Source: a virus
DNA: 27,841 nt
Reading direction: 5' to 3' (one strand)
IMG/VR virus record: IMGVR_UViG_3300021091_000331
Coordinates: 1-27,841 of that record
In this document: in pieces, positions 570 through 27,841 of the stretch
Layout: every line of letters starts with the position of its first letter
How positions within the stretch are numbered: the first letter of the stretch is position 1
Translations under genes and position numbers: made by a program
Notes under the pieces: model-generated
Databases searched by the model: none
Told to the model about the DNA's origin: nothing
What the model saw: only the letters and a program-made list of their open reading frames with translations

Positions 570-577
570 GATATATA
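570..577 (+). promoter_or_regulatory. Putative late promoter, GATATATA
   Basis: Exact octamer GATATATA, 21 bases before the TTG start at 599. One of seven identical copies in intergenic DNA. No matching -35 element is visible. The flanks form a short inverted repeat (GGGTGA at 566-571 and TCACCC at 590-595). Confidence 0.6.
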
Positions 578-5112: not shown

Positions 5113-5120
5113 GATATATA
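5113..5120 (+). promoter_or_regulatory. Putative late promoter, GATATATA
   Basis: Exact octamer GATATATA in the 71-base gap between the large terminase and the tail sheath, 45 bases before the sheath ATG. The flanks match other copies (AA before it). It would give the sheath gene its own late transcript. Confidence 0.65.
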
Positions 5121-8100: not shown

Positions 8101-9005
8101 ATGGTGGTCTTGAGCCAGGAATGGGCCCAAAACAATACTTGAGTCGATTAGCTAAGAATCGTCAACAGTGTCTAGCTTTATTGAACGCCCCTTCTATGGC
8201 TGAATTCCAAGCAAGCACTGACCCGCGATTCACTGAATTACCTGACGCTGCTTCAGGAAACCCTAAACCAGTGCTTAACACCGAGTACATTTCTACAGGT
8301 GGTAACTTAAGCCTTGGTCCAAGTTATACTTGGGGTTTACCTGATGAAGAGAACGGTGCTAAATTTATTGGGGTCTTCACACCTAACGTTATCCTTAGAG
8401 AAAACGGTAAGAACATCAGTATCCCACCTGCTGCTCACGTTTCTAACAACTTCGTTGCTAAATTCGTGAACGGAACCCCTTATGCTATCGTCGCTGGTCC
8501 AAGAAGAGGTGTTATTTCTGACCCTAAATTCGTAGGACTTGAATATGACTTCTTGTTGAAGGACCGTGAATATCTCGAACCAGCAGGTCTTAACCCCATC
8601 GTAGTTGTTCGCAACGTTGGTCCAATGATCTTCGCTAACCAGACTGCTTACCAAAGAACTTTATCAGCATTCAACAACTTACATGTTCGTGACTTGCTTA
8701 TTACAGTTGAAGAAGGTGTTATTGAAATCTTACAAAACTACTTGTTTGAGTTTAACGATGCTGCTACACGTCTTGAAATACGCACAATCATTGAAACATA
8801 TCTTGATGTTGTAAGAAACGCTGGAGGTATTCAAGCATTCTCGGTTATTATGGACGATACCAATAACACTAACGAAATCATTGACCAAAACTTTGGTATC
8901 ATTGACATCGGAATCGAGCCAACGAGAGGGCTACAGAAATTCGTTAACCGTATTACAGTTCTTAAGACTGGTGCAATCGCTTCAGGCGGATTTGCTGCAG
9001 TATAA
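5166..9005 (+). CDS. Tail sheath protein (T4 gp18-like), enlarged
   Basis: 1279 residues, about twice T4 gp18 (659). The N-terminal about 100 residues have the sheath pattern (IRLVVGFSRIGPFNSPVFL, then FFHRAIETSLGTGPIFALNL). The C-terminal domain from about residue 1090 is typical of phage sheaths: NNLHVRDLLITVEEGVIEIL near 1170, then a helix with FNDAATRLEIRTIIETYLD, ending with FVNRITVLKTG. Sheath subunits form the contractile tube that drives the tail tube through the host envelope. The extra 600 or so residues in the middle are Thr/Ser/Ala/Gly-rich, beta-looking segments that would project as surface domains. The leader is A-rich without a Shine-Dalgarno sequence. The tube gene follows directly, as in T4. 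Confidence 0.93.
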   Translation: MAKITLDLNRFKASGIYTIEFDASEFIVVSTQTIRLVVGFSRIGPFNSPVFLRDIRTARRVFGTIDSSLEARGSFFHRAIETSLGTGPIFALNLLPLNNVPVNEGGDAVDYRSFALAANENNGDITRALYASFYNKERFFYPDTDYLQATVDSKPANRGRLFNVVNLGQQAQSVIIRKSTNASQYNVTAQDYFGADEIPTFVYKSDFMSDYFVDVFIVRGDWTNLPLLAKDPLYSKFFDLRGLRADRLNSFLSLDGITLTGSFTGCIIPDFLDNNGSNQSIDVIVNQQVATTGLFLNINQDVLEDYANSTYKVDMIGNTLINTTDDILDFLSYNTPIKSVLSFTGKDDNLLSQTTLQSFGPLTGSVEPYIRSVATGGAAGKFGNVLVLPRPIPSDIIFTPSQWDYIASVLNTRSLVLSNGALTINDSDTPNDYVKVSNIVDTGTDLLIYLSNPVRQDKDYYSALYGTGPESDYIEETVAAAVPTLANTIDIKSFSNLTPVITVGDVILVEAPGYTKYFEIASYIPSFSPGVDRIIVNTSLTVGGPLWLNKWCVAGFAADEFAAYQQPSALRVTVWATTEVGAQDLIPNLQQGFGNTFGYIAECASTIANVEGLGQTTNAAAENNVTITDASSGTVYGTAHIYGTFATTDAYDLVLSSPTYGGVNILTAAGLNAFTVLGVAAAAQVIITLPGGQQFTGFADPAAVVGVDPTLTGSNIATISYIESYPGSKLSKNINGNLLVDGDRVKYGSGASQYNYLNVDSIWGKNINQYSKVAYGLPGTIVRQFADTALQNPTTNFATLDNTYIDTTIQLPAALGENVFAAYSSLAKNIQSNIAIETPGLYGGGKKFKLSQTNSVNLEVGDFVVNNDIVSPKLTRVTSKVKKLDPATGSPYFEYTVIEVPGTTTTSGISYITKFTPIQKFADRFQFTQLSGFKMTDYHIPGTPAQLEKILSVLETTNIGETLASRDVIQFRYIIDTFNGGLEPGMGPKQYLSRLAKNRQQCLALLNAPSMAEFQASTDPRFTELPDAASGNPKPVLNTEYISTGGNLSLGPSYTWGLPDEENGAKFIGVFTPNVILRENGKNISIPPAAHVSNNFVAKFVNGTPYAIVAGPRRGVISDPKFVGLEYDFLLKDREYLEPAGLNPIVVVRNVGPMIFANQTAYQRTLSAFNNLHVRDLLITVEEGVIEILQNYLFEFNDAATRLEIRTIIETYLDVVRNAGGIQAFSVIMDDTNNTNEIIDQNFGIIDIGIEPTRGLQKFVNRITVLKTGAIASGGFAAV

Positions 9006-9009
9006 GAAA

Positions 9010-9017
9010 GATATATA
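9010..9017 (+). promoter_or_regulatory. Putative late promoter, GATATATA
   Basis: Exact octamer GATATATA followed by CA, five bases after the sheath stop and 31 bases before the tail tube ATG. It would allow the tube to be transcribed separately from the sheath up to the terminator at 9625. Confidence 0.65.
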
Positions 9018-9048: not shown

Positions 9049-9606
9049 ATGGCAGGATTACCGCACTATAGAAATTCCAAAGCCGCCATGGCTCAGTACG
9101 AGCCGGTGTACTTGGCACAGTTTGAGGTTACACTACAGCCTCCTGCTGCTGTTACAGGCTGGACTCTAGTAATGGAAAACGTTCTTAAAGTTGGTGGAGT
9201 TGATGTTAACCGTTCACCGGCAGTTGTTGAACAAAAATACAAATCAGCTAAACGTTCGTTTGCTGGTGGTATGGTAGATGCAACTACTTGCGATGTACAA
9301 CTTGATTTCGAAGTCAACCTTGACGATGCAAACTCAATGTATTGCTACAAAGCACTTCGTAAATGGTGTGATCTTATCTATGATCCACTTACAGGAAGAA
9401 TGGGATTGAAAAAGGACTACACTGGAGGACCGATGATCATCAACTACTTTAACAAGAATGGTGATATCTTCCGTCAGATTAAGTTCCCGATATGTTTCCC
9501 AACATCGCCTATCACTCCTATTGAAACAGATTTTGGTAGTAACGATATCTACAAAATCACCGGATTCACATTACGTTGTGATTACTGGGAAGAGACAATT
9601 CTCTAA
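9049..9606 (+). CDS. Tail tube protein (T4 gp19-like)
   Basis: 185 residues, near T4 gp19 (163). Features of the tube fold are visible: YLAQFEVTLQPP near residues 21-32, a central TTCDVQLDFEVNL strand, and the C-terminal pattern of a late strand ending ITGFTLRCDYWEE. The sequence DPLTGRMGLKKDYTGG near residues 112-127 is a likely loop between strands. Tube hexamers stack to form the inner pipe around the tape measure and carry the DNA. Its position directly after the sheath gene supports the call. It is followed by a strong terminator and preceded by its own GATATATA motif, so it can be made as a short, abundant mRNA. Confidence 0.93.
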   Translation: MAGLPHYRNSKAAMAQYEPVYLAQFEVTLQPPAAVTGWTLVMENVLKVGGVDVNRSPAVVEQKYKSAKRSFAGGMVDATTCDVQLDFEVNLDDANSMYCYKALRKWCDLIYDPLTGRMGLKKDYTGGPMIINYFNKNGDIFRQIKFPICFPTSPITPIETDFGSNDIYKITGFTLRCDYWEETIL

Positions 9607-9650: not shown

Positions 9651-9691
9651 ATTCACAAATTTCCCAAAAATAAGAACTTTTCTTGCCAATG

Positions 9692-9699
9692 GATATATA
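9692..9699 (+). promoter_or_regulatory. Putative late promoter, GATATATA
   Basis: Exact octamer GATATATA between the terminator at 9625-9650 and the ATG at 9720 (20 bases away). The placement just downstream of a terminator strongly suggests a fresh transcription start. Confidence 0.68.
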
Positions 9700-9719
9700 A
9701 TTAAACAAAACCATTTTAT

Positions 9720-10733
9720 ATGTCAGAAGAACAAAACAACGACTTTAAAGAGCAGATTGAACGAGAAGCCAAATTACTTGCCCAGCAAGAAGAAGCTGCT
9801 GCTGCCGCTGCTGCTAAAAAAGTTGAAGTTGAAACTGTTGCAGAAGATCCCGTTCTGATTGCACAACCAACTTCACTTGGTAAAGCAGAGAAGTTCAAAA
9901 TTTATGAGGAAGAAGATCCAATTGCTAATGAGCTTGGTTGGAAAACTGTTCCATTAGAAAACCTACCATCAGGGGGTATGTTTTACGAACCGGGGACACA
10001 AGTTGCTATTCGTTCTGCATCAGTTGCTGAGATACGCCACTGGTCAACGATAGACGAAAATGACTTATTAGGTGTTGATGACATGCTTAACTTTATTGTT
10101 GATAAGTGTGCTCGCATTAAAGTGCCTGGTAAACCCGGTACATACAAAGATCTAAAGGAAATTGACCGTTTCTATCTAATCTTTGCTATTCGTGACTATA
10201 CATTTAAGAACGGTGAAAATAAAATGTTTGTAACTGTTACTAATGATGAAGGTCTTGAAGAAAGAGTAGAAGTAACTAAAGATGTTATTGATTACTTTAA
10301 TGCAGATGAGAGATTAATGAATTACTTTGATAACAACGATCGTTGCTTTGATATTCGTATGAAAAACGGTGAAAATTTCAAAATGTATTTACCGTCTCTT
10401 GGAACAATGCTATTCATCAAGAATTACTTAAAGCAACGTCAACAAAGCGGTACAAACTTTGATAAATCTTTCGTTAAGTACGCACCTTTTCTTTTTCCGG
10501 ATTGGAAAAGTGTTAATCAGAATGTGTATGATAAAGCTGTGCAAGAATCGTATACATGGTCATTGCAAAAGATCTCCGTTATGGATAAATTAGTTGACAT
10601 GCTAGCATCTTCGGTTAAACCGCAAGTTCGCTATCGTTCAATGAGTGGGACGGAGGCCACTGCTCCGCTTAACTTTCAGTCAGGAGTCAAGTCTATTTTC
10701 CTTATTTCAGATATCTTTGGAGAATTGGTTTGA
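9720..10733 (+). CDS. Tail assembly chaperone / baseplate hub-type protein (T4 gp26-like)
   Basis: 337 residues. The N-terminal 60 residues are charged with an Ala run (about residues 26-33) and look disordered. The core starts near residue 75 with LPSGGMFYEPGTQVAIRSAS and AEIRHWSTIDE, a pattern I associate with T4 gp26-type hub and tail-chaperone proteins. It lies between the tail tube and the tape measure, the place where contractile and siphophage tails encode tape-measure chaperones, often as a short and a frameshifted long form. Its last codons read SDIFGELV, then TGA at 10731-10733. The continuation that the family pattern leads one to expect appears at once in the +1 frame (EVEFLML...SELDRFEFWRAE). 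Either a +1 frameshift makes a fusion of about 443 residues, or the downstream ORF starts on its own at 10747. Confidence 0.75.
   Translation: MSEEQNNDFKEQIEREAKLLAQQEEAAAAAAAKKVEVETVAEDPVLIAQPTSLGKAEKFKIYEEEDPIANELGWKTVPLENLPSGGMFYEPGTQVAIRSASVAEIRHWSTIDENDLLGVDDMLNFIVDKCARIKVPGKPGTYKDLKEIDRFYLIFAIRDYTFKNGENKMFVTVTNDEGLEERVEVTKDVIDYFNADERLMNYFDNNDRCFDIRMKNGENFKMYLPSLGTMLFIKNYLKQRQQSGTNFDKSFVKYAPFLFPDWKSVNQNVYDKAVQESYTWSLQKISVMDKLVDMLASSVKPQVRYRSMSGTEATAPLNFQSGVKSIFLISDIFGELV
10727..10733 (+). promoter_or_regulatory. Candidate programmed +1 frameshift site (GTT TGA)
   Basis: The zero frame ends GAA TTG GTT TGA. Skipping the T at 10731 continues as GAG GTT GAG in the frame of the next ORF. 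The end CTT TGA C of the bacterial prfB +1 site is similar: a pyrimidine-ending codon that can re-pair with TTT, followed by a slow TGA. A GGAG sits nine bases before the stop's preceding codon region (10719-10722), as an SD-like stimulator would. No -1 slippery heptamer is obvious in the overlap. Confidence 0.4.
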
Positions 10734-11102: not shown

Positions 11103-11110
11103 GATATATA
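11103..11110 (+). promoter_or_regulatory. Putative late promoter, GATATATA
   Basis: Exact octamer GATATATA followed by CAA, directly after the hairpin terminator and 27 bases before the tape-measure ATG. Confidence 0.68.
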
Positions 11111-11137: not shown

Positions 11138-14100
11138 ATGGCGAATGCAGATGCACAGTATATAGGTCAACAACTCAATAAGCTTTTAGGCCCAGGTGCA
11201 CCTATCAACGCGATTCTTGAAAAAATTGAAAAGAATACAGGTGGCAAAGGTGGCAAGGATGACAAGGGTGATGACAAAGGCAAGGAAGAAAAAAAGGGAG
11301 AAAAAATCGATGCGGGTGATATTGCTTCATCAGCAAAAGCCTTGGCAGAACTTATTAAAGCACTTTCCGAGGCAGAATCTATAGATAAGAGTTTAGGGTC
11401 TAATGTTGCAATCGTTATCAACGATATCGTAACTGCATTAGATGAAGCCACCAAGGAAATGGATACTGAGAAGATGCAAGCAACAGCTGATCTTATGAAC
11501 GCTATCCTTGGTAACGCAGGCACGTTTATGAAAGACATGGCTGCGATGTCTGTCTTGACGCCTTTATCTATGGCGGGTGCTGCTGGTTTTGGGGCAACAG
11601 TTGCGATGACTCTGCGTATTTTATCAGGGGTTCTTATGAACGCCACAACAAACATGGCCGCTGTTGTAGAACTTATGGGCGTAGCCGGAGGGGCAGCGCT
11701 ATTCGGTCTTGCTATGGCTGCGTGGTTATTTTTAGCACCAATGGCTGCTTTAGGCGCATTGGTATTCTCTGTTGTAGTATTTGCCATGTTATCACTATTT
11801 AGTTTGCTAGCTGCGTCTGCGGTCACTAATGTAGCTGCAGTAGCAGAGCTTGTAGGTATAGGTGGCAGTGCTATTATGTTTGCATTGGGAATGACTATCA
11901 TATCGCTACTCATGGTCCCTTTTGCGAAAGGTGCATTGGTTTTTGCAATCGTTGTTGCTGCCATGATTCTTATATTTGGATTGGTTGCAATGGCAGTGCC
12001 TCAGCTTGCAATAGCCACTGCTGGTATTGCTGCAATAGCTGGTACTGCGTTCCGTTTAACTTTAACATTCATTCTGATAGGATTTTTTGCTAAACAGTTT
12101 GCTATAGGTGCCTTGGTATTTGCTTTAACAGTAGGAGCTATGCTCCTTATATTTGGAGCAGTAGCCAAGCTATTTCCCGCAGTGCTCACTGCCGCTGAAG
12201 CAATCAGCATAATTGCAGGTGTTGCATTTAGGTTAGGTTTAACATTCGTACTTATAGGTTTATTTGCTAAAACGTTCGCTATCGGTGCGCTTACCTTCAT
12301 ATTAGCGATGGGGGTTCTTTTACTCGTGATGGGAGCAACCGCCGCTTTATTCCCTGAAATAACGCTGGCAGCAACTGCTATTAACAGTATGACTAAACCT
12401 ATCCTGAGTCTCACTGTTGCATTACTTATCGCAGGGCTATTTCCGATGAAAGTTCTTTTGGGCGGTGTAGTAATTTCGGTAGCAATAGCTCTTCTTTCCG
12501 GTGCTTTTGCGCTTGCGGGACAGGTTGCGGTCTGGATTGACTTTGGTGCTCAAGCGGTTCAAAAGATGGTAAACCCTACCATGCTAATTGGCGCTGCTGC
12601 TCTGGTTGCTGGTTTCTTCGCACCGCAGATAATTTTGGGAGCTGGTGCGCTTGCCATTAGTATTGTACTATTAGGTGGTGCATTTGCTCTTGCGGGTATT
12701 CCTGTTATTGCTGCAGCGATACATTTAGGGTCTTTTACTCTTGGCAAGGCAAGTTTCCCTTTAATGATATTTTCTGCCGTTCTTGCTATCTATTCTTTCC
12801 TCGACGCGCCGAGAGTAATCGCTGGCGCAGCAGCACTTGCTGGATCCATCATACTGCTAGCCGGCGCATTCGCGATATTTGGTATACCTCTTTTAGCTGC
12901 CCTTGTTATTATTGGATCCATTGCTCTCGAAACGGCAGCTATACCTTTAATGGTATTTGCTGGCGTGGTTGCAGTAATTGGTTCGTTACCTGGAATAAAC
13001 ATGGATAACATACATGCTCTCGCTGACTCTATTTCTGTATTAGGTCTTTCGGTAGCTTCTTTGGGCTTTCCTTTGATAGCTCTTTTTGTGATTCTTGGTG
13101 GTACGTCTTTGGTTTTTGCATCAGCGGGGATAATTGCTTTAACAGGAGCAGTCGCGGTATTTAATCAAGTCAAGTATGATAAGAAAACTGGTCAGCTGAT
13201 GGGAGATATGATAACTTCATTGGCTTACGCAATACTTGAAGGCTTTGCTATCATGGGCAATCCTATTTCAGCATATCTTATTATGTACGGTTCTATAGCA
13301 ATGGCAACCGCAAGCTATGCAATAACAACATTAGCGGAGGCTGTTGCTAAGATTGCCAATCTTGAAGTTACCTCAATGGTGGTAGCTAATCCTGGAACAG
13401 ATAAAGCTCAACTTGTTTTAGGAGAAACTCGTAAACTCAAGAAAAGCGACTTTAAAGACGCTGCCAATAACATCAAGTTAATGATTACTACATTAACAGG
13501 CCCTTTAATGGAGTTTGGTATGGCTGCTTCAGTTGGTAGTAGTTGGTTTACAAAAGGCATTATGCAGAAGGGTCTTGAGATGATGCCTATTATGGCGGAC
13601 TCTATTGCTACGCTTGCTGAAGGTGTAGCTAAGATGGCTAACCTGGAAGTAATGACCAACGTTGTAATCAACCCTGGGACAGATAAAGCTAAACTTGTGA
13701 TGGGCGAAGTTAGAAAACTTGATAAGTCTGACTTTAAAGAAGCTAGTAAAAACATCAAGTTAATTCTCACCAGCTTAACAGACCCTCTAATGGAATTTGG
13801 TAAAGCTGTTGACGAAGGCAGTGGTTGGTTTACAGCAGGTTACATTGAATCCGGTCTTGAAATGATGCCTAAACTTAGCGACTCTATGGTAGTTCTTGCT
13901 GAGGGTGTAGCTAAGATGGCTAACCTGGAAGTAATGACTAACGTTGTAATTAACCCGGGCACTAAGGACGCTAAACTTGTCATGGGTGATGTTAGAAAAC
14001 TCGATAAGTCTGACTTTTCAGCAGCTGCCAAAAACATAAATGCTATTCTTAGCGCAATCACTTCGCCCCTTATGGAATTCGGTAAAGCTGTTGACGAAGG

Positions 14101-17100
14101 AAGTAGTTGGTTTAGCGATGGCTACATTGAAATGGGTTTAGATATGTTTGGCAAGCTTTCGAGTAGTATGGTTACTCTTGCTAAAGGTGTTCAGCAGATG
14201 GCTAGTCTTGAAGTCATTGAAAACGAAGTGATTAACAAGGGCACTAAGGACGCAATGATCGTACCTGGAAAAGTCATTAAATTAAATGAAGGGCACTTTA
14301 CAGCTTCTGCTACAAACATAGGTGCTATACTTAGTAACATTACATCGCCTCTTATGGACTTCGGAAAAGCTCTTGATGAAGGAAGCGGTTGGTTTAGTGA
14401 CGGGTACATTGCTACTGGAGTTGAATACTTTGGCATTTTAACAGAATCTTTAACAACGCTTGCTACCGGTATTCAGGGGATGGCTAATCTTGAAGTCACT
14501 CAAAACAAAGTGATTAACAAGGGTACTAAGGAGGCAATGATCGTGCCTGATAAAGTGACAAAGCTCCAGGAAAGCGATTTCAAAGCTGCTGCTACTAACA
14601 TAGGCACCCTTCTCTCTACGCTAACAGCACCACTTACTAATTTTGGTATTCAGCTTGAGGGTGGAACAGGCGGAGGCGGATTCTTTTCCTTTTTTGCAGA
14701 TGCAATAAGTCCTAATTACATGCAGATCGGTCTTGAAGGCTTAGGCACTCTATCTGGCTCATTAACAGGCCTTGCTGAAGGGATGGCCAAGATGGCCAAC
14801 ATGGAGTTCATAACCCAAGAAATAGTTAATAAAGGGACACCTGACGCTAAACTCGTCCCCGGCAAAGTAATGAAAGTTACGCCGCAAATGATGGAACAAG
14901 CTGCATTAAGCGTAGGAGCGCTTCTTGCTGGTATGACTTCTCCGCTAACTGACTTTGGTATTGCACTTGAAGGCGGGACGGGAGGCGGCGGAGGGTTGCT
15001 TGACTTCTTTGCTGACCTAGTCAGCAAAGACTACATGAGAATAGGTCTTGAAGGAATCGGCACTTTATCTGGGTCTTTGGGAAGTCTTGCAGAAGGAATG
15101 GCCAAGATGGCCAACATGGAATTCATTGAACAAACGATTGTAGGTAGAGGGACACCTGACGCTAAGGTAGTACCCGGCAAAATCAGACAGGTTACGGAGG
15201 GCATGATGACCCAGGCTGGTAAGAACGTGGGTGCTCTTATCGTGTCATTGACAGAACCACTTACTAACTTTGGTAAGCAACTTGAAGGCGGTACAGGCGG
15301 ATCAGGTAGCTGGTGGGACTTCTGGTCAGATTGGGTTAGTCCTGACTATATGAGAATTGGTCTTGAAGGTCTTGGAACTCTATCGGAATCTTTGGGAGGT
15401 CTTGCTGAAGGTATAGTAAAAATGGCTAACTTGGAAGTCGTTGTAAATAAAGTGATTGATGACGGAAAAGGCGGAACCAAGATAGTTCCAGATTACGTAA
15501 GAAAACTATCTTGGGTCGACTTTGCTAATGCTGGATCAAATGTAGGAACTATACTTTCTTGGATAGCCACACCTCTTACAGACTTTGGTAAAGCTATGGA
15601 AGAAGGCAGCAGTTGGTTCTCTGGCGGGTATGTTGAAAAAGGACTTGAAGGTTTAGGTCTCCTTAGTGAATCTTTGGGTGGTCTTGCTGAAGGTGTTATC
15701 AAAATGGCACAAATGCAAGTGATTACTCAAAAGGTAATTAACCCAGGAACTCCCAAAGCAAAGGTTGTTCCTGACCAAGTAATAACTCTTAACGAAGGGC
15801 ACTTTGAGCTGGCAGCAGCGGGTATTGGAAAAATCTTAGACGGTTTAGCTGGCCCTCTTGGCGATTTTGGTAGAGCATACGCAGGAGGCGGTAGTTTCTT
15901 TGGTATAGTCTTTGGCGATGTTAAGTCAGGTATTGAAGCGATGGGTGAAGTAGCTGAACCAATTGGCGTACTAGCTGACGCAATCATCAAGATGGGAAGC
16001 GGGCAATTTGTTCAACAAGAGGTTGTTAAAGATAAGAAAGGAAATCCTAAATTGGTGCCAGGAAAGGTTATTAATTTCACTGACATGGTTGCTGACGCTA
16101 AAGTTAACTTGTATGATATCTTAACATTTTTTCCAGGCGCATTATCAGAAGCTGGTCATTTGGCACACGCAAACTATGAAGGACTAACCCACATGATGTG
16201 GCATCTTGATAATACGATAAACCCAACATTTGAATTGTTGATTGAAACTACTGAATTGTATTCTGAAGCTACCGCTGTGATTATGAAAGTTCGTGCAAAA
16301 TATCCTGAAGTATATGGACTAGAATTTGCTGGAAATTCTCCTTTCATATGGCCAGTTAAACGTTACATATCCGGTGCTGAACTTATTTCAAAAAGTGTAG
16401 GTGTGTTGAAAGACGCCTTGTGGAATTTCCACACTTATATCAATCCTGGTTTACAAGAAAACGTTACGGCATCATTGCTTTATTACAGAGCAACTGATAT
16501 ATTTCAAAAGGCCAAGGACAAAAACATCCCGATGGATCAACTAATACTTTCCTTCGATGTAAGTATGTCAATACTTGGCAGGACTATGAAAAGAGACATG
16601 AACATACCTGCGCTGCAAAACCTATGGCACTTTACCAATCAGATGCAAAGACTTTCTAACATGGTCACACCATTTGAAAGATTCACAAAGGCGTTTACAC
16701 AATTTGCTAAAGACATGGGTACATTCAGTCACAACTTCATGGTAATGACACCTGATGGTATAAATGCTTACAAAATTTGGACTGACGCTGTAGTTACAGT
16801 CGCAAACACCGACTTTAGTCTTATTGAATCCAAAATACAAGCTATGCGTGATATTGCTGCTAGCATCTATAAGGCGGGCGATCCGGAGATTCCTGGAGCG
16901 GATTTGACGCAAACCCTGGGAGAGAAATTAGGGGCTATAGGCAACACTGCACAAAACGTTGTATCTTCCCCGACCCCAGGTTCAATTGTCGGAGGCGGAG
17001 GCGGAGGCGGAGGCGGCGACGCCACCGCGATTGCACAAGCCGTTAAATCAGCGCTTTCTAACTTAACTGTACAAAACTTAAACGTTACAGGTGTAATGAA

Positions 17101-17359
17101 TACATCTGACAGAAGATTAAAAGATAACATTAAACTTATAGGCGTTTCTCCGTCAGGCATTAACATATATGAATTTACATATGTATGGGATAGCAACACA
17201 AGATTCATAGGTGTCATGGCTCAGGAGTTAATTGGCACTGAATGGGAACACGCAGTTGTTCTCGATGAACACGAGTACTATGCAGTTAACTACTCTATAA
17301 TTGATGTAGATTTCTGTTTAGCAGATGAATATATACAATATGAAAATGACAAGATTTAG
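11138..17359 (+). CDS. Tape-measure protein with two repeat arrays and a C-terminal S74 chaperone domain
   Basis: 2073 residues, the longest gene, directly after the tail chaperone; size and position make it the tape measure (functional counterpart of T4 gp29). Order of parts: a Lys/Asp/Gly-rich segment (35-57); a hydrophobic region (about 140-670) with a strict 59-residue repeat, anchored by A-x-G-A-L-x-F at 204, 263, 322 and 381; nine repeats of 94-105 residues (739-1618), typified by MANLEV, NPGT, LVPGKV, PL-x-x-FG and GLEGLG; a divergent tenth unit; a helical region; a run of nine Gly (1952-1960); and an S74-type domain starting TSDRRLKDNI. Ser1990 and Lys1995 have the spacing of the self-cleavage dyad of endosialidase-type chaperone domains, predicting release of the last 84 residues. 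If mostly helical (0.15 nm per residue), it would span about 300 nm. The hydrophobic part may enter the host membrane during DNA delivery (inference). Confidence 0.88.
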   Translation: MANADAQYIGQQLNKLLGPGAPINAILEKIEKNTGGKGGKDDKGDDKGKEEKKGEKIDAGDIASSAKALAELIKALSEAESIDKSLGSNVAIVINDIVTALDEATKEMDTEKMQATADLMNAILGNAGTFMKDMAAMSVLTPLSMAGAAGFGATVAMTLRILSGVLMNATTNMAAVVELMGVAGGAALFGLAMAAWLFLAPMAALGALVFSVVVFAMLSLFSLLAASAVTNVAAVAELVGIGGSAIMFALGMTIISLLMVPFAKGALVFAIVVAAMILIFGLVAMAVPQLAIATAGIAAIAGTAFRLTLTFILIGFFAKQFAIGALVFALTVGAMLLIFGAVAKLFPAVLTAAEAISIIAGVAFRLGLTFVLIGLFAKTFAIGALTFILAMGVLLLVMGATAALFPEITLAATAINSMTKPILSLTVALLIAGLFPMKVLLGGVVISVAIALLSGAFALAGQVAVWIDFGAQAVQKMVNPTMLIGAAALVAGFFAPQIILGAGALAISIVLLGGAFALAGIPVIAAAIHLGSFTLGKASFPLMIFSAVLAIYSFLDAPRVIAGAAALAGSIILLAGAFAIFGIPLLAALVIIGSIALETAAIPLMVFAGVVAVIGSLPGINMDNIHALADSISVLGLSVASLGFPLIALFVILGGTSLVFASAGIIALTGAVAVFNQVKYDKKTGQLMGDMITSLAYAILEGFAIMGNPISAYLIMYGSIAMATASYAITTLAEAVAKIANLEVTSMVVANPGTDKAQLVLGETRKLKKSDFKDAANNIKLMITTLTGPLMEFGMAASVGSSWFTKGIMQKGLEMMPIMADSIATLAEGVAKMANLEVMTNVVINPGTDKAKLVMGEVRKLDKSDFKEASKNIKLILTSLTDPLMEFGKAVDEGSGWFTAGYIESGLEMMPKLSDSMVVLAEGVAKMANLEVMTNVVINPGTKDAKLVMGDVRKLDKSDFSAAAKNINAILSAITSPLMEFGKAVDEGSSWFSDGYIEMGLDMFGKLSSSMVTLAKGVQQMASLEVIENEVINKGTKDAMIVPGKVIKLNEGHFTASATNIGAILSNITSPLMDFGKALDEGSGWFSDGYIATGVEYFGILTESLTTLATGIQGMANLEVTQNKVINKGTKEAMIVPDKVTKLQESDFKAAATNIGTLLSTLTAPLTNFGIQLEGGTGGGGFFSFFADAISPNYMQIGLEGLGTLSGSLTGLAEGMAKMANMEFITQEIVNKGTPDAKLVPGKVMKVTPQMMEQAALSVGALLAGMTSPLTDFGIALEGGTGGGGGLLDFFADLVSKDYMRIGLEGIGTLSGSLGSLAEGMAKMANMEFIEQTIVGRGTPDAKVVPGKIRQVTEGMMTQAGKNVGALIVSLTEPLTNFGKQLEGGTGGSGSWWDFWSDWVSPDYMRIGLEGLGTLSESLGGLAEGIVKMANLEVVVNKVIDDGKGGTKIVPDYVRKLSWVDFANAGSNVGTILSWIATPLTDFGKAMEEGSSWFSGGYVEKGLEGLGLLSESLGGLAEGVIKMAQMQVITQKVINPGTPKAKVVPDQVITLNEGHFELAAAGIGKILDGLAGPLGDFGRAYAGGGSFFGIVFGDVKSGIEAMGEVAEPIGVLADAIIKMGSGQFVQQEVVKDKKGNPKLVPGKVINFTDMVADAKVNLYDILTFFPGALSEAGHLAHANYEGLTHMMWHLDNTINPTFELLIETTELYSEATAVIMKVRAKYPEVYGLEFAGNSPFIWPVKRYISGAELISKSVGVLKDALWNFHTYINPGLQENVTASLLYYRATDIFQKAKDKNIPMDQLILSFDVSMSILGRTMKRDMNIPALQNLWHFTNQMQRLSNMVTPFERFTKAFTQFAKDMGTFSHNFMVMTPDGINAYKIWTDAVVTVANTDFSLIESKIQAMRDIAASIYKAGDPEIPGADLTQTLGEKLGAIGNTAQNVVSSPTPGSIVGGGGGGGGGDATAIAQAVKSALSNLTVQNLNVTGVMNTSDRRLKDNIKLIGVSPSGINIYEFTYVWDSNTRFIGVMAQELIGTEWEHAVVLDEHEYYAVNYSIIDVDFCLADEYIQYENDKI
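11747..12454 (+). repeat. Exact 59-residue hydrophobic repeats in the tape measure (four clear units)
   Basis: Units begin with A-x-G-A-L-x-F at residues 204, 263, 322 and 381, exactly 59 residues apart. Each holds two long apolar helices joined by a short segment, and a shared motif such as AGVAFRLGLTFVLIG in the middle units. Weaker units with similar spacing extend on both sides, so hydrophobic helices cover roughly residues 140-670. Confidence 0.85.
13352..15991 (+). repeat. Nine tandem 94-105-residue repeats in the tape measure
   Basis: Each unit runs from [MI]A-x-[LM]E[VF] through PGT or KGT, V-x-KL, and PL-x-x-FG to a G-L-E-x-x-x-x-L-x-x-S segment. Units 5-7 carry a longer Gly-rich, aromatic insert (GGTGGGG or GGTGGSG followed by FF or WW). 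Units 2 and 3 are very close at DNA level: 35 identical bases at 13622-13656 and 13904-13938, 282 bases apart, which points to recent duplication. Confidence 0.9.
17105..17356 (+). other. S74 / intramolecular chaperone auto-processing domain within the tape measure
   Basis: Codons from Ser1990 onward read SDRRLKDNI, then INIYEFTYVW, TRFIGVMAQELIG, VVLDEHEYYAVNY. This is the usual order of S74 domains: the SDxRxK dyad, a Y-x-[WF] strand, IG-V-x-AQE, and Y-x-V-[DN]-Y. In fibre proteins this domain trimerises, helps folding, then cuts itself off before the Ser. The last 20 or so residues (DVDFCLADEYIQYENDKI) replace the usual closing helix with an acidic sequence. Confidence 0.85.
17261..17280 (+). 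repeat. 20-base exact direct repeat, copy 1 (in the S74 domain)
   Basis: CTCGATGAACACGAGTACTA, encoding LDEHEY in frame. The same 20 bases occur at 17812-17831, again encoding LDEHEY. Confidence 0.95.
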
Positions 17360-17930: not shown

Positions 17931-17983
17931 TACCGAGAACTAAATTCAATATCTTAATATAAATACTATAACACGAGAAACAC

Positions 17984-18271
17984 ATGAACGATAAAGACAA
18001 AACAAATTACTTGCGACAAAAGCTTGTCAGCTTCAGAGCTAACCCCGGCGAGGATGAGTCTGGTCCTAAAGAGCCAAGCACGAATGAAAATAAACCAGAA
18101 AAGAAAATACCGCAGCTTAGCAAAATCTTTCAGTTAGTTTTCATGTACCTTGCTTTCTATGGAGCACAATACATTATTTTAAGTAAGTATGTCAACCCAG
18201 AATTAACACTTAACTTCTTTGAAGCAGGTATAATATATTTATGTATAACATCCCTATTTAGAAAAGCGTGA
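17984..18271 (+). CDS. Two-helix membrane protein, holin-like topology
   Basis: 95 residues. The first 45 are charged and likely cytoplasmic (rich in Lys, Glu, Pro). Two apolar segments follow at about 48-66 and 76-92, with a short loop between, ending LFRKA. The topology fits a small class II-type holin, but many Bacteroidetes phages and cells have small two-helix proteins of unknown role, and no endolysin is visible nearby. The stop overlaps the following GTG start by four bases (GTGA), so it is probably coupled to the kinase gene. Function is not established. Confidence 0.8.
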   Translation: MNDKDKTNYLRQKLVSFRANPGEDESGPKEPSTNENKPEKKIPQLSKIFQLVFMYLAFYGAQYIILSKYVNPELTLNFFEAGIIYLCITSLFRKA

Positions 18272-18840: not shown

Positions 18841-18857
18841 GAACTATTTACAAAACC

Positions 18858-18865
18858 GTTATATA
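18858..18865 (+). promoter_or_regulatory. Possible promoter, GTTATATA variant
   Basis: GTTATATA in the 49-base gap after the kinase gene, 24 bases before ATG 18890. One base differs from the late octamer (T for A at position 2). The spacing matches the late promoters. Confidence 0.4.
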
Positions 18866-18889
18866 AACAATAAATCATTAACTTCAATC

Positions 18890-19174
18890 ATGAAAAACTA
18901 CACAGTAACCCCAGAGTTTAAGACGCGAGCAACAGCTCTTTTGAACACTAAGAAATTTTCCGCAGTGTTCCCTTACATGAACCTAATCAACCGTGACGGT
19001 TTTAACTACAGCGAACAAGAACTAAATTCAATCGTCCAGTTCGTCGGGGAGTTTCCTTACAATGAAGTAGCTGAATTTTTCCAAATTCTACCTACGCAAA
19101 TTAAAGAATCAGCAAAGGAAGAAATAACACAAGAATCAGCTGAGCCGGTAGCAGAAGAATCTGAGACAAAATAG
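18890..19174 (+). CDS. Small acidic-tailed protein, unknown
   Basis: 94 residues. It begins MKNYTVTPEFKTRATALLN and has a compact, mixed helical core with NRDGFNYSEQELNSIVQF (about 34-51). It ends in an acidic, Glu/Ser-rich tail (from about residue 72) that looks disordered. There is no membrane helix and no recognised motif. The next gene starts six bases after its stop, so the two are probably cotranscribed, which hints at a nucleotide-metabolism or host-takeover role but proves nothing. Confidence 0.8.
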   Translation: MKNYTVTPEFKTRATALLNTKKFSAVFPYMNLINRDGFNYSEQELNSIVQFVGEFPYNEVAEFFQILPTQIKESAKEEITQESAEPVAEESETK

Positions 19175-19179
19175 TCTGA

Positions 19180-19650
19180 ATGACCCCCCGAATAGTTCAA
19201 AAGGTAGACACGTTTGTAAATATACTTGAACAGATATCCAAGCTGTCTACGTCTTCTCGTCTCAAAGTTGGCGCAATATCGGTTCACCGAAAGTTTCAGA
19301 AGATAGCATCTTTTGGCTACAACGGAAGCTTTCCTGATGCGCCTATTAATTCCACTACAGGTACTGAGGAAGAATCACTTGATCCTGGTTTATCAGGGTT
19401 CATTCACGCAGAGGTGAACATGATAGCTAAATTTCGTGAGAGTGATCCTGAAAACTACATTGTTTTACTTAGTCACTCACCGTGTAGTGTATGTACAAAA
19501 GTCCTAGTAAATGCTGGGTTCAAGTACATATACTGGATCGAAGAATACCGCGAAACTAAACACCTACAAATACTTGACAATTACGGCATTATGTACGGTG
19601 ACATAAAATCTCTCTACCAAGATTATTACACAACAATAAACCGTCGCTAA
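19180..19650 (+). CDS. Deoxycytidylate deaminase-like protein (CDA fold)
   Basis: 156 residues. The zinc-binding and catalytic signature is complete: HAE at 76-78 (His76 ligand, Glu78 proton shuttle) and PCSVC at 101-105 (Cys102 and Cys105 ligands), 26 residues apart. The N-terminal SSRLKVGAISV strand and the NGS(F) segment at 48-51 fit the dCMP deaminase family. The enzyme converts dCMP to dUMP, feeding thymidylate synthesis for phage DNA. T4 carries an equivalent (cd, 193 residues), and this one is shorter. It sits with the guanylate kinase gene, forming a small nucleotide-metabolism group. Confidence 0.9.
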   Translation: MTPRIVQKVDTFVNILEQISKLSTSSRLKVGAISVHRKFQKIASFGYNGSFPDAPINSTTGTEEESLDPGLSGFIHAEVNMIAKFRESDPENYIVLLSHSPCSVCTKVLVNAGFKYIYWIEEYRETKHLQILDNYGIMYGDIKSLYQDYYTTINRR

Positions 19651-19705
19651 GTTGTTAATAACTTATTAGAAAAATGGTTTACTATATGAAAATTTTTAGT
19701 TATTT

Positions 19706-19718
19706 TTATACTGTAAAC
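19706..19718 (+). promoter_or_regulatory. Possible promoter element upstream of the sigma gene
   Basis: TTATACTGTAAAC in the 80-base gap between the deaminase and sigma genes. It resembles TTATATAAACA at 18859 but is not the GATATATA octamer. The whole gap is strongly AT-rich. The assignment is weak. Confidence 0.25.
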
Positions 19719-19730
19719 AAAAAATAATAT

Positions 19731-20342
19731 ATGCACGAAAAACAAACACTTCAAAGAATAGGTCTTAACTTTTTTGAAACTCGCACAGAAAAGGACTTCA
19801 CCGCTGTTTACTACAGAATGAAACCTGGTATCAGTATGTACTTGCGAGAAATGCTACCAAACATGGACGATCGTGAAGAAGTTATCGCGACTACATTTGC
19901 CAAAGTCTGGGGCAAAATTCACCAATACGACCCTTATTGGAATTTTTCTACTTGGGTTTACCGAATCGCCCGCAACGAAGCTTTGCTATTCTTCCGCAGT
20001 AAAAAGAAAACATATTCATACGATGCAATGAAAGAGATGGGTATCAACGTTGAAGCCAAAGTGGGCTATGATATACCTGATTTTGCTGAAGATGAATTTG
20101 TAAATACTACTGAAAGATTACACGACATCGTTCTTGAAGAAATCAATAACTTACCAGACATGTACAAAGAAGTTCTTACTCTTCGTGAGGTTGAGAAAAA
20201 GAAATACGATGAAATCGCTGAAGATCTTGGCTGGAAAGTAAATACAGTAAGAACGCGCATACATAAAGCTCGCAGGTTAATCAGGGCTGAAATTGTCAAA
20301 AGAGATCCAGCGTTACTAAAAAAATACCAAGAAGCATTATGA
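19731..20342 (+). CDS. ECF-type RNA polymerase sigma factor
   Basis: 203 residues. Region 2 spans about 20-92, with DDREEVIATTFAKVWGKI and the NFSTWVYRIARNEALLFFR stretch that melts and reads the -10 DNA. Region 4 spans about 133-188 with the helix-turn-helix KYDEIAEDLGWKVNTVRTRI and a closing KARRLI. This two-domain layout is the ECF (sigma-E-like) class. It would redirect host RNA polymerase to phage promoters. It is the only sigma factor in the window, and GATATATA is the only shared promoter-like motif, so I infer that one reads the other, as T4 gp55 reads TATAAATA. The membrane gene after it overlaps by ATGA. No GATATATA copy precedes this gene, so it is probably expressed earlier than the genes it controls. 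Confidence 0.93.
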   Translation: MHEKQTLQRIGLNFFETRTEKDFTAVYYRMKPGISMYLREMLPNMDDREEVIATTFAKVWGKIHQYDPYWNFSTWVYRIARNEALLFFRSKKKTYSYDAMKEMGINVEAKVGYDIPDFAEDEFVNTTERLHDIVLEEINNLPDMYKEVLTLREVEKKKYDEIAEDLGWKVNTVRTRIHKARRLIRAEIVKRDPALLKKYQEAL

Positions 20343-20818
20343 TTACATGGTTAAAAAATTTCTTTAAGGCTAGAGGTCTTCGTCTATTGTGGATAGACTT
20401 AAGTAATTGGAGATACGTAATGAAAACTATCAGAAAACACAAAAAAACCTCTGATTGGGAATCGTTTAATCTGAGAGCTGATTGGGTTGGGCGCATATAC
20501 ACGGTACTTAATCCTCAGTCCCCAACAGACGACGGGGACACGATTGAGATACTCAAAATTAAGTACGCTGATAGACTTAAACCAATGAACCTTTACATTG
20601 ATAAAATTGGCTTAGGTTACTCAGTATCACCTGCCTACGAACAAGTAAATGATACTAATTCTTTTTTGATAGTTTATGTGCCAATCTTTAGTTACTTAAC
20701 AGTTTGGAAAGTTTTTATCTGGTTAATTTTCGTATTAACATTTTTCTTAACTAAGTTAGATACATGGACATTCAGTGCAATTACCTATCTATGGGATCTT
20801 TTAATGAAACTCTTCTAA
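20339..20818 (+). CDS. Membrane protein coupled to the sigma gene, unknown
   Basis: 159 residues, start overlapping the sigma stop by four bases (ATGA). The basic N-terminal region (MITWLKNFFKARGLRLLW) is followed by a soluble stretch with a region ILKIKYADRLKPMNLYIDKIG. A strong apolar helix (about 119-138) and a weaker one (about 145-157) lie at the C-terminus. ECF sigma genes in bacteria are often followed by a membrane anti-sigma factor, and the order and coupling fit that idea. However, the zinc-binding H-x3-C-x2-C motif of common anti-sigmas is absent and the topology is unusual. It is best left as an unknown membrane protein. Confidence 0.82.
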   Translation: MITWLKNFFKARGLRLLWIDLSNWRYVMKTIRKHKKTSDWESFNLRADWVGRIYTVLNPQSPTDDGDTIEILKIKYADRLKPMNLYIDKIGLGYSVSPAYEQVNDTNSFLIVYVPIFSYLTVWKVFIWLIFVLTFFLTKLDTWTFSAITYLWDLLMKLF

Positions 20819-20829
20819 TAAATAAACAA

Positions 20830-20837
20830 GATATATA
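20830..20837 (+). promoter_or_regulatory. Putative late promoter, GATATATA
   Basis: Exact octamer GATATATA followed by CAA. It lies only two bases before ATG 20840 but 20 bases before the second in-frame ATG at 20858, and the latter distance matches the other late genes. It would drive the block from 20840 to 25090. Confidence 0.62.
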
Positions 20838-20839
20838 CA

Positions 20840-21421
20840 ATGGACAAATCAAAAATTATGGAAACACAAGAACAACAAATTAATGCAAAAATCGTTTCTA
20901 AAAAAGAAGAAATAGAAGTTAGAAACGTCATGCGAGCCGATATGGTTAAGAAACTTAGCGAAAAAATCGAAGCAAAGGAAAAAGAAATTGAAAACAAGAA
21001 GTACATTATAGAAGGCGGTACTAAAACAGCATCTTCTATATTAAATTTCTTGAAGGAAGATGCTAGTTGGAAATTTAGCGAGGCACTCGGTGTGATTGAG
21101 GCAACTCGCCAAATAGAAGACGCGCAAAAGGATATTCTTAAGAATAAGACTAAAGAATTACTTATACCCGCTCTTGCTGTTGAAGCTGTTTACTACTTCT
21201 TAACCAAAGTTGAAGGTAAAGGCTTAACGAACGCAACTTCGTTTGTAAATGACCTTCTTAAGCCAGTGACTGACGCTCTTAGCCGTTCAAAAAATGATCG
21301 TGCTGAGATTGATCAATTGGTTAGAGATCGTGGTACTCTTGAGTCTGCTATTGACAGCGGGATAGATATCGAGAACGAAGATAGTGTGTTGAAAGAAATA
21401 CAAGAAGAATTAACGAAATAA
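20840..21421 (+). CDS. Coiled-coil protein, unknown
   Basis: 193 residues from ATG 20840. If the GATATATA at 20830 is the promoter -10 region, the message would begin near or after this ATG and translation would start at ATG 20858 (METQEQQ), giving 187 residues. Residues 10-58 form a charged coiled coil (KKEEIEVRN...KLSEKIEAKEKEIENK). A moderately apolar middle follows (LLIPALAVEAVYYFL at about 107-121), then a second charged helix. The region at 107-121 is too short and too polar around its edges to be a confident membrane helix. No family is recognised. It lies upstream of two membrane-protein genes and may work with them. Confidence 0.82.
   Translation: MDKSKIMETQEQQINAKIVSKKEEIEVRNVMRADMVKKLSEKIEAKEKEIENKKYIIEGGTKTASSILNFLKEDASWKFSEALGVIEATRQIEDAQKDILKNKTKELLIPALAVEAVYYFLTKVEGKGLTNATSFVNDLLKPVTDALSRSKNDRAEIDQLVRDRGTLESAIDSGIDIENEDSVLKEIQEELTK

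Positions 21422-24145: not shown

Positions 24146-24149
<4 letters not shown>
23658..24149 (+). CDS. Unknown protein in the fibre operon
   Basis: 163 residues. The start shares a base with the upstream stop, and its own stop overlaps the next ATG (ATGA). The sequence is mixed alpha/beta with acidic stretches ([16 protein letters not shown]) and no membrane helix or signal. It sits just before the first collagen-like fibre, so a fibre connector or fibre-assembly role is possible (inference from position only). No family is recognised. Confidence 0.8.
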
Positions 24150-25090
<941 letters not shown>

Positions 25091-25118: not shown

Positions 25119-25126
25119 GATATATA
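25119..25126 (+). promoter_or_regulatory. Putative late promoter, GATATATA
   Basis: Exact octamer GATATATA followed by CTC, in the 60-base gap after the fibre stop and 24 bases before ATG 25151. It would drive the last three genes. Confidence 0.65.
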
Positions 25127-25150: not shown

Positions 25151-25693
25151 ATGATATACACAAGAATTTACCCTATGGCTGCAAGGTCTTATGCCCAGCA
25201 AACTGTAAAAGGGCGCTGCACTGTTACCGCCAGTTCTTCGGATATATCCGTAAGTGATGCAGCTTATGCTGCGGCATTAGCTGGTTATGTTGTAACCATT
25301 TATCAAGGAGATACATCCGACATTTTTGCAAGTTATCAAGTTGATGCATTAGTTGCACCTAATAGTTTAACACTGAAGACTATTACCGGAGCGGCGTGGA
25401 CAGCACCAGCTGGATCCTCCGGACAATACGATTTTTTATTATTTGATCCTGATGCACCCAGCGCTAATGATTTTACACCAGCGGCTTTAGTATTTTCTAC
25501 TGTTCCTGGTTCCGTTGGTTCTGGGGATGAGATGGAAGTTATTCTTGCTTCAGGACAGTACGCGGTATTACCTGGAGATATTTTTGTAGCAGGAGCAATA
25601 TATGCAATTTCCATAAAGGAAATTCTAAATCCGGGTACTGCTAGAGGGTACTTACTTGGAAATGACGGTCTTAACGGGCGATCATTTATCTAA
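25151..25693 (+). CDS. Probable structural protein, unknown
   Basis: 180 residues, preceded by its own late promoter motif. It starts MIYTRIYPMAARSYAQQ. The rest is Ala/Ser/Thr/Val-rich with alternating strands (VVTIYQGDTSDIFASYQVD) and no Cys-rich or membrane segment. There is no signal peptide. Beta-rich composition plus its own strong promoter suggest an abundant virion component, but the identity is unknown. A 32-base gap separates it from the following UVR-motif gene. Confidence 0.82.
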   Translation: MIYTRIYPMAARSYAQQTVKGRCTVTASSSDISVSDAAYAAALAGYVVTIYQGDTSDIFASYQVDALVAPNSLTLKTITGAAWTAPAGSSGQYDFLLFDPDAPSANDFTPAALVFSTVPGSVGSGDEMEVILASGQYAVLPGDIFVAGAIYAISIKEILNPGTARGYLLGNDGLNGRSFI

Positions 25694-25725: not shown

Positions 25726-26148
25726 ATGGACCTTATAGACAGAGCCATTAGCAGAGTCATTAATATGATTGACTGGGCTAAGATAAAAGGCTACCATAAG
25801 AAACTTGGTATACTTTGGGAATTTGAGCATGATAAACAAATCATTCACAGAACACCAAACATACCAGAATTAAAAGAAGAACTAAGAAGTCTTCTCAATC
25901 ATATGAATGAGGAACACCTTAACTACATTTCACATGGTAGTTGGGTAGTTTTCTGGGAGCGAGAGAGATCTAGCATAGGTGACATAAGAGTCATTTTCCG
26001 AATAATGGATTTTCACTTTGAGGAAAACCTCCAGTCACGAGAATCTATGGAAGCTGCTCTTAAACAAGCGATTGAGAGAGAAGACTATGAATACGCAGCT
26101 ATCTTACGAGATGTGCTAAATAAAGAAAAAGAAAACCCGACTGAGTAG
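25726..26148 (+). CDS. Protein with C-terminal UVR-type motif
   Basis: 140 residues. The central part is mixed ([20 protein letters not shown], then a [13 protein letters not shown] region). The C-terminus carries a good UVR motif, [20 protein letters not shown], in which the pattern (D-Y-E-x-A-x-x-L-R-D) matches UvrB/UvrC/McsA/Clp linker helices that mediate protein contacts. The first base of the next gene's GTG start is the last base of this stop codon. A protein-protein interaction role is likely from the motif, but no partner is evident. It may be related to the partial gene at 2-79. Confidence 0.85.
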
Positions 26149-27841
26149 TGGCTGGAAAAACTAACCTTATAACATCGTTTGTTCGTAGAATTAACAAGTA
26201 CTTTAATTCTACCGCAGAATCTTGGCCTAGACCAAAGAGCGCTATACCTGGGACAAACCACGTTGATAACCCTACAGACTTCGGCGGTAGAACCATTTAT
26301 CGTGGAGAAGAGATCGTTGATTTTGATAAAGGTAAACTTTATACACAAGACGGCGCTGAGATTATTCAGCCTAATACCGAACCCTCAATTTTATCAGGCC
26401 TAAAGGTACAAAAGCCTAATGTTGTAGCAGCAGTAGGAGCAGCAACGTGGGTGCAAGTTGAGACAGGTGTTGGTAGAATATACGGAAGAAACTATTACCA
26501 TGAACAAGCCTTAATTAACGGAGACATACAAATCGTCGATAACACCTACGTAAACAAAGCGCGGATTGATATTGTATATCTAGAAAGCGGATTCCCATCT
26601 CCCGCTCCACCGGCGATGGTACCTGGGACATCAGGCACGGAATACTTAGGAGCAATTGGTGCTGTTCAAGGGATACCGTATAACACAGGTCGTGCTACTA
26701 CTTTCATGGCTTCAGGAACAGCTGGAAACTCCATTCTTGACGTAAGTAATTTGGCTGGTTTAGGAACAGGGACAATTAACATCGGCGACATTATTATTGG
26801 ACCGGGGCTTGGGATTGGCGTTACTGCTTCAGCCATTGGTTATACTGGTGCGGGGGTAATTGATACAGTTGATGTTTCTCCAGCAACTTTAAGTTTAAGT
26901 CCTGTTGATAACTCTTTTGCGGTTGCATATACTAACGGAACCCTTTATGCTTTTGTTGGTAATACTGTAGCAGGAGTTAACTCTATTACCAATGTACACC
27001 CAATGCCTGGCGTTACCGGAGACATTGTTATAGGTAACGGAATTCCGCTAGGAACTTATGTAACAAACATATCAGGGACTACAATTACGCTTAGTGAAAA
27101 TGCTACGCTTTCTAACAGCAGTACCATATTTTCAATTGGTGATGTAGCTGATCATTTAATATATGATACCTATTCTCCTTGGCCTATTCTTAGCGATGAC
27201 AAACTATTCTTGGGGTTAGTTTACGTTCCCCCTTCATACACATCTGCAAGTTCTACTCACGAGTTAAGACCGTGGAGTTGGAGCGATGCATGGCAAACTT
27301 TTGACGCACCTAACCATAGTCCACAAAATCTTATTAAAGATTGGAGAGATAAGGTAGATTATTACCAGGCTGACATTTCTTATGTATCAGACCAATTCTT
27401 GATCGATAGATTTAATCACACTTTATTTCAGGTAGTACGCAATCACTACAGTTATTCCCTGGCGCAATCAATTTTAGACGGAGATATCATAAGGATTTAC
27501 GGTTTCGGTGGAGGTCCTATCGGTGCTACGGGTGGAACAGGAGGTACTGGACCCACTGGACCCACTGGACCCACTGGACCCACGGGTGCTACAGGCCCTC
27601 AAGGTGTTACAGGACCTACGGGACCCACGGGTTCTCAAGGAGTTACAGGCCCTACGGGTGCTACAGGCCCTACGGGTGCTACAGGACCCACGGGTGCTAC
27701 AGGCCCTACTGGACGCACTGGACCCACTGGACCCACTGGACCCACTGGACCCACTGGTGTGACTGGAGCGACTGGACCCGCAGGATCAGCACTAAGAGTC
27801 ATTGATATTCCAGCCTATTTACCTGAAGGTGGAGAATGGGA
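26148..27841 (+). CDS. Large collagen-containing tail fibre (3' partial)
   Basis: An open frame of 564 codons runs from GTG 26148 to the window end with no stop. GTG overlaps the preceding TAG (TAGTG), and the next in-frame ATG is not until 26617. The N-terminal half (about 1-455) is a soluble, beta-rich region ([53 protein letters not shown]). It includes [11 protein letters not shown] and a later related [10 protein letters not shown], which suggests duplicated repeats. Residues 456-546 are collagen triplets, then [18 protein letters not shown] begins a C-terminal domain that is cut off. It probably forms a trimeric receptor-binding fibre. The downstream end is not visible. Confidence 0.92.
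27513..27785 (+). repeat. Collagen-like triplet repeats (fibre 2)
   Basis: About 30 Gly-x-y triplets, chiefly GPT and GAT, coded by tandem 9-base units. The segment 27717-27767 is identical to 24341-24391 in fibre 1. Confidence 0.95.

Follow-up and report, generated by a model that had tools for sequence, protein, structure and literature searches.

An ECF sigma factor with a coupled membrane protein as the probable middle switch of a three-step transcription cascade in T4-like phages

The window analyzed here, a viral DNA stretch of 27,841 nucleotides (positions 1 to 27,841 of IMG/VR record IMGVR_UViG_3300021091_000331), encodes an ECF sigma factor and, translationally coupled to it, a membrane protein. 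The promoter motifs of related contigs make it probable that this sigma provides the middle switch in a cascade of three steps, in T4-like phages that probably infect Bacteroidota. Host RNA polymerase would transcribe the early genes, including that of the ECF sigma, from class A host-type promoters with an upstream palindrome. The ECF sigma would then take host core polymerase to class B promoters ahead of clamp loader, topoisomerase, DNA polymerase and helicase genes, and a gp55-like sigma with region 2 only would later serve the structural genes from GATATATA (class L). The membrane protein, made together with the sigma, could control it as a tether or anti-sigma until release. We infer the timing of the three classes from their motifs.

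The sigma gene and its promoter

The sigma gene (19731..20342, + strand) encodes 203 residues, with Sigma70_r2 at residues 31-93 (E 4e-11) and Sigma70_r4_2 at residues 132-182 (E 4e-15), both above the Pfam cut-off; no region 3 family is listed for it in the Pfam scan. The protein scores 69.4 bits against the NCBIfam sigma70-ECF superfamily, where the cut-off is 42.9, its profile matches the solved SigW and sigma-E structures across positions 15-189, and its PHROG match is phrog_1740. The two-domain ECF sigma proposed in the sequence-only reading is therefore confirmed above the thresholds of both Pfam and NCBIfam, and regions 2 and 4 without region 3 place the protein in group IV (ECF). It is not of the gp55 type, as phrog_234, the gp55 PHROG, is absent from its matches up to E 0.1. 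ECF sigmas recognize bipartite promoters with an AAC-type -35 element.

A host-like promoter region of the Bacteroidota -33/-7 type precedes the gene (19678..19713, + strand), the consensus being that given in the available part of PMC9723704, where TAnnTTTG is the -7 box of the flavobacterial primary sigma. The match is inexact in the window; TAnnTTTG is exact in several relatives. Some 70-80 nt 5' of the sigma start lies the near-palindrome TTGTTAATAACTT, a class A element (19652..19664, + strand). As the sequence-only reading had stated, the sigma gene has no GATATATA of its own, the nearest site lying ahead of the gene after the pair (20830-20837). Its placement among the earlier genes is consistent with this and with the putative host-like promoter.

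The membrane partner and its constant pairing with the sigma

The partner gene (20339..20818, + strand) starts inside the sigma stop codon with an ATGA overlap and encodes 159 residues with one strongly hydrophobic stretch, near residue 120. In a model built from 24 sequences (mean pLDDT 91.9, pTM 0.75), a soluble alpha/beta domain is followed by a long predicted helix, residues 122-158, that contains the hydrophobic stretch and forms the one C-terminal membrane helix. Coupling to a membrane protein without the usual zinc motif had been read from the sequence, and both points stand. The protein contains no cysteine and therefore no zinc motif of the usual kind, which rules out a zinc-type anti-sigma identity.

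Family searches gave no name to the partner. Pfam, PHROG and NCBIfam returned nothing for the window protein up to E 0.1, phage records contained no match at E 0.1, and Pfam over 24 family members gave only single-member chance matches; no known anti-sigma family was found for it in Pfam or in NCBIfam (the latter up to E 0.1). A PDB search reached no match with an E-value of 0.001 or lower, the top one having E 0.09; the best VIA Z was 5.4, to unrelated proteins, and the seven BFVD matches at E 0.001 or better are all uncharacterised or unnamed. With no named relative from PDB or BFVD, an assignment of function from the fold was abandoned. A further BFVD row (E 1.8e-3) is, at a guess from its length and look, ORF-043 of Tenacibaculum phage PTm1. 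The partner thus has the position of an anti-sigma gene, directly downstream and coupled, and neither a known anti-sigma family nor a zinc motif; that it acts as an anti-sigma is something we infer.

The two genes are almost always found together, although many of the contigs are near-duplicates and the counts that follow are therefore not independent. A sigma search of viral contigs gave 25 loci, every one of which, judged by eye, has a membrane protein homologue as its following ORF, and searches with the membrane protein gave 34 loci, 32 of them with the sigma directly upstream. A search with a wider alignment found 252 membrane-protein relatives, the best 80 of which were taken for locus counts; these 80 comprise 53 distinct membrane proteins, and the sigma lies directly upstream in 79. 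The exception, L202, where no sigma was found, shares its contig with L095. Genes were called with a simple longest-ORF script (60 aa or more). PTm1 was considered as an isolated relative carrying the pair and rejected, the best HMM matches being E 0.41 for the family ECF sigma and E 0.18 for the membrane homologue.

The surroundings of the pair are conserved as well. Upstream in the window are a 94-aa gene (18890-19174) and a deaminase gene (19180-19650), both on the + strand (18890..19650); among the 79 loci from the best 80 of 252, the former is near the pair in 73 and the latter adjacent to it in 60. The third gene directly follows the pair in 26 of the 77 loci with room for it and does not in the other 51, again from the best 80. 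In the diverged loci looked at, a nuclease-like gene of 180-250 aa (by eye) stands between the membrane and third genes (L217:5563-6177, L203:5447-6199).

Since the neighbourhood as a whole keeps its order, adjacency argues strongly, though not independently, for a shared function of sigma and partner. The partner might instead be unrelated to the sigma, an early membrane function held in place by that synteny, which we consider rather unlikely, though less so than the other alternatives. It would account for the conserved neighbours on both sides of the pair, for the membrane homologue of L202 with no sigma found, and for a similar fold, presumed to be PTm1 ORF-043, that has no sigma beside it. 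It would also suit contig G022 (L102:4359-6330), whose membrane homologue occurs without this sigma family; however, that homologue adjoins a divergently transcribed 462-aa gene with a Sigma70_r2 match, a sigma-like gene that takes the place of the ECF sigma. General synteny also sits poorly with a pair that is consecutive in 79 of 80 loci when the third gene is so often displaced. As the constant neighbour of the sigma there, and in a similar pair of Lak megaphages, the partner is likely to be a dedicated regulator of the sigma, perhaps a tether or an anti-sigma.

Three promoter classes

The class L motif GATATATA occurs seven times in the window, always on the + strand, against 1.08 expected from shuffles, and none of 100 shuffles reached seven. 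For six of the seven sites, a gene starts no more than 45 nt downstream (longest-ORF gene calls). Besides a site at 570..577, they precede the tail sheath gene 5166-9005 (site 5113..5120), the gene 9049-9606, tail tube-like by the scan of a homologue (9010..9017), the gene 9720-10733 (9692..9699), a 2073-aa ORF at 11138-17359 (11103..11110), the gene 20840-21421 directly after the sigma/membrane pair (20830..20837) and the gene 25151-25693 (25119..25126). With 2 nt between the end of the 20830-20837 site and the ATG at 20840, translation may really begin at the 20858 ATG, or the transcript may be leaderless. Also in this window, tail fibre-like proteins carry collagen-like GPTGPT repeats (24146-25090 and 26148-27839). 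In a k-mer count over 307 intergenic upstream regions from five contigs, GATATATA was seen 55 times against 3.0 expected, and 60 sites share no conserved upstream block.

A second k-mer from the same 307 regions, GAATATAA (34 seen, 3.6 expected), has a different architecture: its 35 sites carry [AG]AA[AC][CT] at -19 to -15. In 8 clade contigs, RAAMY-Ns-GAATATAA occurs 39, 57 and 14 times at s=13, 14 and 15, at most four times at other spacers and, on the reverse strand, at most twice at any spacer; 10 Markov resamples gave 0-3 for the N14 form, compared with the 57 seen. All promoter classes were defined as string patterns, class B being RAA[AC][CT]-N15-17-NTATAA. Upstream of genes, RAAMY-Ns-NTATAA at s=15/16/17 is found 44/78/27 times in all 8 clade contigs, 10/27/22 times, at slightly longer spacing, in five contigs with a diverged sigma, and 1/1/0 times in G022 and PTm1, both without this sigma family. 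The peak is thin in G030 and G032 (2 and 4), G017 has three sites at spacer 16, and G027 has a noisy variant form, NTAATA. Class B is therefore present in every examined contig with the sigma (as the variant in G027) and in neither of the only two without it, G022 and PTm1; G017 and G027 carry the sigma, and G037 and G041, which contain gp55 and have no r4_2 match, may be fragments and were left out of the negatives. In the window, GAACT-N15-NTATAA sites precede the genes 17984-18271 (17937..17962, + strand) and 18890-19174 (18841..18866, + strand), a class B-like site (9674..9700, + strand) overlaps the GATATATA at 9692 so that both classes occur at one place, and two further pattern matches lie inside genes.

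Class A emerged from the same k-mer count of 307 regions as enriched pieces of GTTAATAAC together with the host-like -7 element. Downstream of the GTTAATAAC sites come TTTG and TAnnTTTG-like elements, and the sigma gene belongs to this class. In many class A genes the near-palindrome stands ~70-90 nt 5' of the gene, and between it and the -7 element there is often a hairpin that resembles a terminator (by eye). The near-palindrome may bind a regulator.

The genes behind each class

The three classes precede different kinds of genes. Among 713 upstream regions in 14 contigs, where gene labels are those of homologues of annotated PTm1 genes, 136 have L only, 123 B only, 9 both, 84 A and 361 none. 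Class L precedes the tail sheath gene in 12 of 12 cases, neck genes in 10 of 13 (3 none), two baseplate subunit genes (1 A, 9 none), one portal gene (2 none) and one prohead protease gene, with another prohead protease gene carrying both motifs (2 none). The remaining structural and other labels are one baseplate hub gene with B and one with none, four head completion genes with none, and a major capsid, a large terminase and a thymidylate synthase gene, each with none. Class B precedes seven of eight clamp loader genes (1 none), all four topo B genes and the one topo A gene, two DNA polymerase genes (1 none), three RNase H genes (4 A, 3 none) and one ssDNA-binding protein gene (2 none), and class A precedes four DNA ligase genes and one NAMPT gene. 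Replication genes thus divide 18 B to 0 L and structural genes 26 L to 1 B (Fisher p 1e-11, computed without the one structural gene that has both motifs, on related contigs that are not independent).

PHROG scans agree with this division. The class B proteins (20 of 23 clusters scanned) include clamp loader, DNA polymerase, DnaB-like helicase, topoisomerase, dUTPase and thymidylate kinase, in addition to a DNA-binding protein and a kinase-like protein. The 19 class L proteins include portal, sheath, tube and head closure, along with two glycosyltransferases, a homing endonuclease and a Dps-like protein, and the 10 class A proteins include exonuclease, PRPP synthetase, RNA ligase and ATPase/kinase; the others in each class are unknown or unmatched. 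A sliding clamp gene of class B (L035:10833-11594), identified by eye only, had no PHROG, PDB or NCBIfam match and was not counted. Motif architecture, co-occurrence and gene content all argue that the ECF sigma very probably directs transcription of the class B replication genes.

The replication genes also bear on a second alternative for the partner, in which it is a positive recruiter that gathers the sigma and the polymerase where the phage genome or a replication site is attached to the membrane, for middle transcription. The constant pairing, the layout of a soluble domain followed by a C-terminal membrane helix, which would fit an anchor, the replication genes of class B and the lack of an anti-sigma family match are all compatible with such a role. 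However, a sigma gene followed by a membrane protein gene is the order typical of sigma/anti-sigma pairs. We regard a recruiter as unlikely. The most likely reading of the partner, set against a recruiter and against no relation at all, is still that it controls the sigma as a membrane tether or an anti-sigma that holds it until release, a role we propose only tentatively.

A second, gp55-like sigma factor

Class L appears to have a reader of its own. Of 15 records searched with Sigma70_r2, nine have a second, shorter match and the other six are contigs of <40 kb; in two later record sets a short Sigma70_r2 match was present in 3 of 6 records and in 6 of 8. The short proteins have region 2 only; four contigs encode one of 114 aa, and the gene call in G018 gives 145 aa. 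The two that were scanned match phrog_234 at E 2.9e-13 and 2.1e-12, T4 gp55 itself scoring 2.9e-69. By these matches the short sigma of the related contigs is a predicted ortholog of T4 gp55, and as such would fit as the natural reader of GATATATA, a single-element, -10-only motif. That it reads GATATATA ahead of the structural genes is highly probable. The correspondence between contigs is not complete, in that PTm1 shows no excess of GATATATA despite its gp55-like gene, and G017 has GATATATA and no gp55-like match on its 37-kb contig. G018 carries in addition a third sigma, ECF-like and 205 aa long (L059:12182-12796; position 9710 in the reversed orientation), whose gene immediately follows a class B site, an arrangement by which the ECF sigma might launch a further step.

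The sequence-only reading had assigned the late genes to the ECF sigma through GATATATA, and this did not hold: the predicted gp55 ortholog fits GATATATA, and the bipartite motif precedes replication genes. It is very improbable that late genes are switched on by the ECF sigma through its own recognition of GATATATA, with the membrane protein setting the time; GATATATA is present in all 20 records searched, each of which carries the sigma, and it marks structural genes, but a gp55 ortholog is available to read it, it lacks a -35 block although the ECF sigma has region 4, contig G027 has the sigma, the pair and no gp55-like match with a single GATATATA in 217,700 bases, and class B would be left without a reader.

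Relation to known systems

Bacterial ECF operons have the sigma gene first and then the gene of a coupled membrane anti-sigma. The phage partner differs from those anti-sigmas in having no zinc motif, cysteine or anti-sigma family match, and in its layout, with an alpha/beta soluble domain and a C-terminal membrane helix that no sensor domain follows. A parallel is found in Lak megaphages, where a similar C-terminally anchored protein occurs in 15 of the 15 records with a match. In the Lak record read in detail, a 167-aa protein lies 10 nt downstream of the sigma and has the same gene order, C-terminal membrane helix and order of secondary structure elements as the partner in a low-confidence model (pLDDT 58); its sequence similarity to the partner family is weak (hhalign E 0.003, probability 10%). 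No such membrane gene lies next to the sigma in any of three huge-phage sequences (LR745206, LR756502, LR756504). In the crAss-like phages cr53_1 and cr273_1 (L371, L373), an annotated RNA polymerase sigma-W factor is followed by small membrane proteins of another layout, with N-terminal hydrophobic stretches and, in one, a 4-nt overlap. MT839839.1 (L368), named Bacteriophage sp., pairs an ECF sigma with an anti-sigma-like gene that has the zinc motif, and the record appears bacterial.

Phage sigmas acting in succession are familiar from SPO1, where gp28 is followed by gp33/34; the sigma types and hosts differ from those here, and to our knowledge a membrane partner is not part of that cascade. 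The proposed late step resembles that of T4 (gp55, gp33, gp45), whose late promoters, in the available part of PMC2988020, are boxes of 8 bp that lack a -35 element: a predicted gp55 ortholog is paired with an 8-bp single-element motif before structural genes. What differs from T4 is the motif itself, GATATATA, and the ECF-like bipartite motif that marks the middle class.

For the middle step, the nearest precedents are 7-11 gp47 and phiEco32 gp36, phage sigmas that send host polymerase to phage middle/late promoters (PMC8948821, PMC4281155, in the parts available). The sigma of phage 7-11 has region 4 and a bipartite promoter consensus, as proposed for the ECF sigma here, whereas phi32_gp36, without region 4, uses single-element promoters, a difference that the authors attribute to the presence or absence of region 4 (excerpts of PMC8948821). 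In the accessible parts of PMC8948821 and PMC4281155, the SU10 protein that corresponds to gp36 is given as an ECF sigma. In the same portions, the 7-11 sigma serves late genes and the phiEco32 sigma middle and late genes; here the gp55-like sigma would take the late class. No anti-sigma candidate is annotated for Privateer, a related phage, in the available part of PMC7881722.

Biological meaning

Among the titles and abstract openings found, with subscription journals mostly outside coverage, no phage pair of a sigma and a membrane protein is described. A bolder version of the scheme, in which a dedicated, co-translated partner from a new family with no known relatives among anti-sigmas holds the middle sigma at the membrane until an infection event there, for instance entry of the genome or the end of that entry, releases it, in a pair that spans T4-like Bacteroidota phages and Lak megaphages and a cascade of three sigmas, is doubtful as a whole.

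If the cascade is correct, early, replication and structural genes would be run by host, ECF and gp55-like sigmas respectively, and a T4-type gp55 late system would stand beside an ECF sigma that serves the replication genes. For a large phage lineage, most of it uncultured, this would provide a readable transcription programme of three promoter classes and three sigma sources, with promoter classes that can be checked by sequence alone in any related genome. If the membrane protein does control the sigma, these phages would be timing a sigma factor of their own by way of the membrane.
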